This document shows positions 28,816-32,712 of a DNA stretch of 47,823 bases, piece by piece. Below the pieces are notes generated by a model. The model was not told where the DNA came from. It searched no databases and saw only the letters and a program-made list of their open reading frames with translations. Positions within the stretch are counted from its first letter, which is position 1; every line of letters starts with the position of its first letter. Source of the stretch: Opitutus sp. GAS368 (GTDB lineage Bacteria > Verrucomicrobiota > Verrucomicrobiia > Opitutales > Opitutaceae); NCBI GenBank assembly GCA_945869845.1, contig CAMBRG010000010.1, positions 1 to 47,823 of the forward strand, read 5' to 3'. Made by a program: the position numbers and the translations under genes.

Positions 28816-32712
<3,897 letters not shown>

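Follow-up and report, generated by a model that had tools for sequence, protein, structure and literature searches.

metH and alaS each carry a REP unit in frame

The stretch of DNA analysed here, 47,823 nucleotides of contig CAMBRG010000010.1 of Opitutus sp. GAS368 (the window), contains the genes metH and alaS, each of which harbours a short palindrome of the repetitive extragenic palindromic (REP) type that is translated as part of the protein. metH (28816-32712, + strand) codes for a cobalamin-dependent methionine synthase of 1298 aa, as judged from its open reading frame (ORF), its Pfam domains and the alignment of its linker to the matching part of a methionine synthase chain of solved structure (9ssp_A). 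The metH REP, GTAGGAGCTCGCTTGCGAGCGAT (30842-30864, + strand), was located by a palindrome search combined with a pattern scan of the genome. It is an exact palindrome composed of GTAG, unpaired GA, a 6-bp stem, a TT loop and a GAT tail, and is a monomer. Translation yields the peptide GRSSLASDS (codons 676-684; 30841-30867, + strand). Pfam assigns residues 391-629 to Pterin_bind and residues 697-769 to the cap domain, B12-binding_2, so that the peptide belongs to the interdomain linker leading from the pterin side to the cap side, in agreement with an earlier note on this DNA.

alaS (15823-18549, + strand), identified by its 908-codon ORF and Pfam match, codes for alanyl-tRNA synthetase (AlaRS). 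Its REP, found by the pattern scan, is a monomer of the GTGG variant, GTGGGAGCGAGCTTGCTCGCGAC (17561-17583, + strand), and is translated as GGSELARDS (codons 580-588; 17560-17586, + strand), directly after the Pfam tRNA-synt_2c match (residues 15-579). In an AlphaFold model of an alaS fragment, built from 26 sequences and having a mean pLDDT of 85.9, a strand (112-116), a short helix (119-123) and a second strand (129-134) follow each other, with a mean pLDDT of 85 for residues 121-130. The REP peptide is thus modelled as a short helical turn joining two predicted strands. The earlier note had described a peptide pattern common to metH and alaS in spite of differing stems; both peptides are as it gave them, but the difference between the stems is limited to some of their bases. 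The two peptides resemble each other because DNA and phase are common to both copies.

As both palindromes sit at a domain boundary, they might act as mRNA hairpins that slow ribosomes between domains. An altered alaS copy in another genome (G520, see below) retains five of the six stem pairs by eye, as such a role would predict. However, the stability of the RNA hairpins is little above that of shuffled sequences (z = -0.58 for metH and -1.67 for alaS), leading us to reject a notably stable hairpin, and most relatives have no REP at these sites. We consider this explanation highly improbable.

The units belong to a REP population of the genus

In the window considered by itself, the pattern does not stand out, with 2 matches against 0.86 expected, a number equalled in 20 of 100 shuffles, and a repeat search within the window returned nothing beyond chance-like families. 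In the whole genome, scanned with up to two mismatches, 75 matches to the REP pattern contrast with 1 for a reversed control pattern. The genome-wide copies, together with a layout resembling that of GTAG-1 REPs, bear out the earlier view that the two palindromes are REPs and demonstrate the excess of such palindromes on which that view had been staked. With a slightly wider pattern and up to one mismatch, matches were found in 13 of 13 genomes of the genus, namely 78 in the source genome (G000), 59 in G005, 57 in G008, 50 in G001 and 1 to 10 in each of the other nine. Ten other genomes of the family have 0-2 matches each. The genomes that carry a REP in alaS outside the genus (see below) have REP matches of their own, 78 in G226, 120 in G254, 19 in G547 (locus L160) and 38 in G548 (locus L175).

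The features of the units agree with the GTAG REP superfamily. Their unpaired terminus is GTAG in metH and GTGG in alaS, and the copies are many and dispersed, mostly between genes. Compared with the description of GTAG-1 in the text of Di Nocera et al. 2013 (PMC3733652), rather than with its consensus figure, they have the GW bases (GA), a short stem (6 bp), a TY-type loop (TT) and a three-base tail (GAT or GAC).

A gene for a REP-associated tyrosine transposase (RAYT), which the earlier note had proposed to look for elsewhere in the genome, has several candidates. The genome encodes five PF01797 proteins, two of which score above the cut-off (80 bits) of the RAYT model NF047646, the others reaching 79.6, 79.9 and 62.6 bits. 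The gene of the 79.9-bit protein, on contig C77, is flanked by alaS-type REPs in inverted orientation (121-143, + strand, and 696-718, - strand), which on sequence corresponds to the usual RAYT arrangement. A REP-flanked RAYT-like gene, a further feature of the superfamily, is represented here by one whose protein falls just short of the cut-off.

A third REP-like element of the window, with a loop of the TTTAC class, is intergenic and starts 30 nt past the metH stop codon (32742-32765, + strand); its class has 10 matches in the genome, allowing up to three mismatches, versus 0 for the control pattern.

REP copies are nearly always absent from genes

We called genes with a codon-usage model trained on the window, 89.8% of which was called coding. 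After inspection, 2 of the 75 copies, those in metH and alaS, lie in genes, whereas coding area alone would predict about 67. That both fall in one window is a coincidence for which the genome scan offers no explanation. The REP element lives between genes, and the distribution argues that it spreads as intergenic DNA and not as a peptide. The suggestion that it spreads as a harmless in-frame peptide was therefore rejected, 73 of the 75 copies not being placed inside a gene. A REP pair on contig C60 (L006) was called coding by the model, yet stands ahead of the probable start of a gene (engB by eye) and was excluded from the in-gene count. Copies in short coding calls of less than 170 nt (L004, L023, L044 and L058) were counted as intergenic on account of the size of the calls and not one by one.

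At L013 and L027 a gene's stop codon is either followed or formed by the REP. At L027 (about position 1501) the TAG of the GTAG end terminates the upstream gene, whose product ends in LLGKK, and in G005 (L237, about 1244-1300) a REP is found at the same gene end. The use of this TAG as a stop codon has been described in general terms (PMC3733652).

In the stretches fetched from G005, G008 and G007 there are 137 copies, of which 126 are intergenic, 8 are at gene edges and 3 were called inside genes. Only the copy in the alaS of G008 lies clearly within a gene; two G008 copies in L300 are near an uncertain gene start and were counted neither way. This survey covered the three genomes, with 8 of the 10 listed places for G007, and the edge copies inspected were those in L237 and L300; G001 was outside it. 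A 200-kb sample of G015 holds 73 GTRG hairpins, 51 intergenic, 7 at edges and 15 in genes. One REP dimer among the latter looked real and the others chance-like, too few for a test of phase.

The alaS linker carries a REP in several lineages

The metH REP was found in the source genome alone. The metH genes of G004, G005, G007 and G036 have no REP at the site and a different linker, and in G008 an assembly break runs over the site (end of contig C31 and start of C32; L267 and L268), which places this gene outside the comparison. Among 57 distinct metH linkers, part of which came from loci drawn with a query containing the REP peptide, only that of the source genome carries a REP of this class.

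In alaS the REP is common to the source genome and G008; it is absent from the other ten congeners in which alaS was matched. REP DNA occupies the same linker in L160 (Verrucomicrobia bacterium GL140_3) and L175 (Candidatus Didemnitutus sp.), and G226 and G254 are further carriers. The named relatives in the comparison database are Opitutaceae and other Opitutia, and the linker scans addressed a single REP class (GTRGGAGC type), the TTTAC and O. terrae classes being outside their scope. Of 132 alaS loci 126 could be parsed, giving 102 distinct rows, from which a tree was built by a quick method. It contains 6 carriers and requires 6 changes, at least 5 of which are forced by well-supported branches. 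As carriers are rare and dispersed among relatives without a REP, we read these changes as captures. On this sequence evidence the REP appears in five separate lineages, represented by G000/G008, L160, L175, G226 and G254.

In an additional sample, for which 38 of 45 loci could be parsed and in which 8 of the 50 genomes gave no match to alaS, the linkers of G525 and G421 are the same as those of L160 and L175, and G524 and G522 are further carriers. The G520 copy has changed bases and still reads GGDLARD. G525, G524, G522 and G520 are of one genus (g47) and may go back to one old capture. It was a DNA scan of the 13 unparsed loci of both sets that added the G522 carrier (locus L432), in the same strand and phase; L472, which lacks the linker, and L471, which ends within it, do not count as negatives. 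When 178 alaS fragments, including some genes fetched twice, were scanned on both strands, clear REPs occurred in this linker alone and in one strand and phase. Weaker matches with two mismatches (L171 and L338, which are the same gene, L180 and L462) lie away from the site of the REP or on the opposite strand, and we take them as chance.

Horizontal transfer, or one ancient capture followed by many losses, would also produce a shared alaS site. The flanks of some carriers are alike over short stretches, and the possible common origin of the four g47 copies fits such a history. Yet on flanking protein sequence the carriers group with REP-free relatives, forcing the changes counted above, and REP variants and left junctions differ by lineage. 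We regard this origin of the pattern as quite improbable.

REP codons do not lengthen the alaS linker

The alaS linker has 22-26 residues in carriers and, in 96 non-carriers, a median of 23 with quartiles of 21 and 25. Given that a REP arm encodes about 9 residues and that the linker length is normal, native alaS codons must have been lost, at capture or later. The REP codons thus stand in for native codons with no net addition, and S-x-L-A-x-D may substitute for the Gly or Gly-Asp turn of many other AlaRS. The metH linker, as parsed, varies from 13 to 27 residues across relatives, the REP form being 3 codons longer than that of G007 and 3 shorter than that of G004.

The same linkers frequently harbour a second type of repeat. 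Tandem repeats of period 7 (at least 11 of 14 matches) are present in 16 of 77 alaS linkers, among them L098, L101, L156, L190 and L363, versus 1 of 1535 windows of equal length from the same genes. The repeats are in frame, CTCAACT-like units, for example, reading SQLSALN. For periods 4-6, 8-11 and 13 the same score is reached in 0-3 alaS linkers. In metH, 7 of 57 linkers contain period-7 repeats, compared with 13 of 1455 control windows. As species close to each other are not independent samples, the number of events is smaller than these counts imply. The gathering of seven-base repeats in the same linkers favours a permissive linker over a mechanism specific to REPs. A genome-wide count of the seven-base repeat (24 versus 16 for the control) is uninformative, as the control is a rotation of the same repeat.

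metH of the source genome has another repeat-like stretch, CTCTCAATTCTCAACTCTC (31809-31835), which reads NSQLS and is located between the cobalamin-binding and activation domains; the best period-7 score near it is 10 of 14.

The in-gene units share one strand and phase

All six alaS carriers in the tree hold the REP on the + strand with an offset of 1 mod 3, so that its first base is at codon position 2. The metH REP, too, runs along the coding strand and begins at codon position 2. The common phase of metH and alaS claimed in the earlier note is thus real and recurs in further alaS cases of relatives. The accompanying idea that only one phase is tolerated is not enforced as far as stop codons are concerned. 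Among 82 REP copies, 40 have all six frames open, 35 have five and 7 have four, and as 75 of 82 keep five or six frames open we rejected stop codons as the cause of the shared phase.

For the metH and alaS copies of the window alone, agreement in phase and strand is a 1-in-6 event, which chance could readily supply. If the five alaS occurrences were free draws from six frames, their agreement would have a probability of (1/6)^4 = 0.0008. This value is too generous because four of the five (G000/G008, L160, L175 and G226) are at a fixed distance from the downstream RRRAI motif, that is, at one site, be it preferred or tolerated. Counting three distinct positions (alaS main site, alaS site of G254, and metH) gives 0.028, and a strand set by replication would weaken the odds still further. 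As to a bias in insertion phase, all five alaS occurrences are in one frame, but this evidence comes partly from one site. Sampling bears on it as well: G226 (L336) was drawn with a phase-biased query, 45 residues long and including the peptide seen here, G254 was fetched, from the same search, among the other 30 family places then without a locus, and L160 and L175 were drawn with a 266-residue query. With all further alaS occurrences in one frame, we consider two linker insertions that share a phase by chance an unlikely explanation.

The fixed distance to RRRAI would also be expected if the transposase, or DNA repair that leaves a REP behind, favoured one sequence in the alaS linker, with phase and strand following from the site. 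The restriction of clear REPs to this linker among the 178 fragments is consistent with such a target-site preference. However, the left junction of the alaS REPs varies, with offsets of 1, 13 and 25 nt, the G254 REP is 18 nt upstream of the main site with its phase unchanged, metH is another gene with the same phase, and the seven-base repeats of the same linkers are unrelated. A preferred target thus remains a doubtful, though not negligible, account.

Alternatively, the peptide x-x-S-x-L-A-x-D might be selected in this phase as a useful or well-fitting linker, an exaptation. One phase in all alaS carriers and in metH is what such selection would produce, and the G520 copy retains its reading as GGDLARD despite its altered bases. 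Of the two forward frames not used, one is hydrophobic and the second contains Trp or a stop, but one reverse frame is more hydrophilic than the observed one and was never seen in use. Moreover, most alaS linkers examined have no REP. We therefore put this possibility forward only tentatively.

Discussion

Intragenic REPs are known. Di Nocera et al. 2013 (PMC3733652) describe GTAG units inside genes, most of them in O. terrae, a member of the same phylum, and list tRNA synthetases (in three species) and flexible linkers among their settings; recB of two Xanthomonas carries a REP at about the same site. In words, their GTAG-1 and GTAG-2 REPs have extra GW bases and a 3-bp tail. The units in metH and alaS likewise occur in genes and linkers, the difference being that here one alaS linker was hit in five separate lineages. 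The text parts of that paper covered here, which do not include its list of intragenic units, mention no agreement in phase and no length-neutral replacement, and do not name alaS or metH. A literature search returned nothing on REPs in alanyl-tRNA synthetase and that paper alone on in-frame intragenic REPs together with RAYT. The metH case is another instance of a known phenomenon, and the repeated landing in alaS in one phase is undescribed as far as the literature searches reach.

Rickettsia palindromic elements (RPEs) are read in a preferred phase. As far as the sources consulted describe them, they too are palindromes in frame within genes of working proteins. RPE-4 and RPE-6 bear a CGTC tag, and RPE-1 is a longer element, whereas the elements studied here end in GTAG or GTGG and have no CGTC terminus; CGTC REPs are without a dedicated transposase according to the same account (PMC3733652, in the parts covered). 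The TnpA-REP (RAYT) systems of E. coli, Stenotrophomonas and Marinomonas, as presented in the covered parts of PMC8266576, resemble ours in having GTAG or GTGG before a short stem-loop and a REP-flanked transposase gene. In contrast to them, the RAYT is known here by its sequence only, and our in-gene units are monomers.

Taken together, the metH and alaS palindromes are very probably single GTAG-1-like units of the REP population of the genus, presumably made by a RAYT and captured where an interdomain linker tolerates foreign codons. A RAYT would most likely produce the REP units, some of which would be captured within genes at such linkers, and the alaS occurrences would represent independent captures. 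Selection would purge copies that fall into structured parts of a protein, are out of frame or lengthen the linker, leaving in-gene copies that are nearly neutral. In alaS, the observed phase would set S-x-L-A-x-D in the strand-to-strand turn, and this might account for the survival of this phase.

Several points weigh against this reading. Transposition by a RAYT is its indirect step, suggested by the RAYT-like genes. Many intergenic copies are paired, whereas the units in metH and alaS are monomers, and where coding calls are short or at an edge the placement of copies depends solely on the gene model. For metH, whose linker length varies among relatives, both replacement and addition of codons are compatible with the data. 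The alaS tree was made by a quick method, its parsimony changes could be losses as well as gains, and the row of G254 (L372) fills 41% of the alignment columns. Finally, G000 and G008 agree in all 26 bases of the REP while the 798-base fragment differs at only 33 places; as only about one change is expected in 26 bases, this identity is no proof of constraint on the peptide.

Beyond capture at permissive linkers, we can speculate that the linker preceding the editing domain of AlaRS is a recurrent docking site in Opitutaceae at which REPs and seven-base repeats become incorporated into the protein, and that one REP strand and phase survives since S-x-L-A-x-D replaces the native turn, which would amount to repeated, phase-selected exaptation. 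As one linker of an essential enzyme holds this element in five separate lineages, each with REP-free relatives beside it, the alaS genes of this family would constitute a natural replicate experiment on selfish DNA becoming protein.
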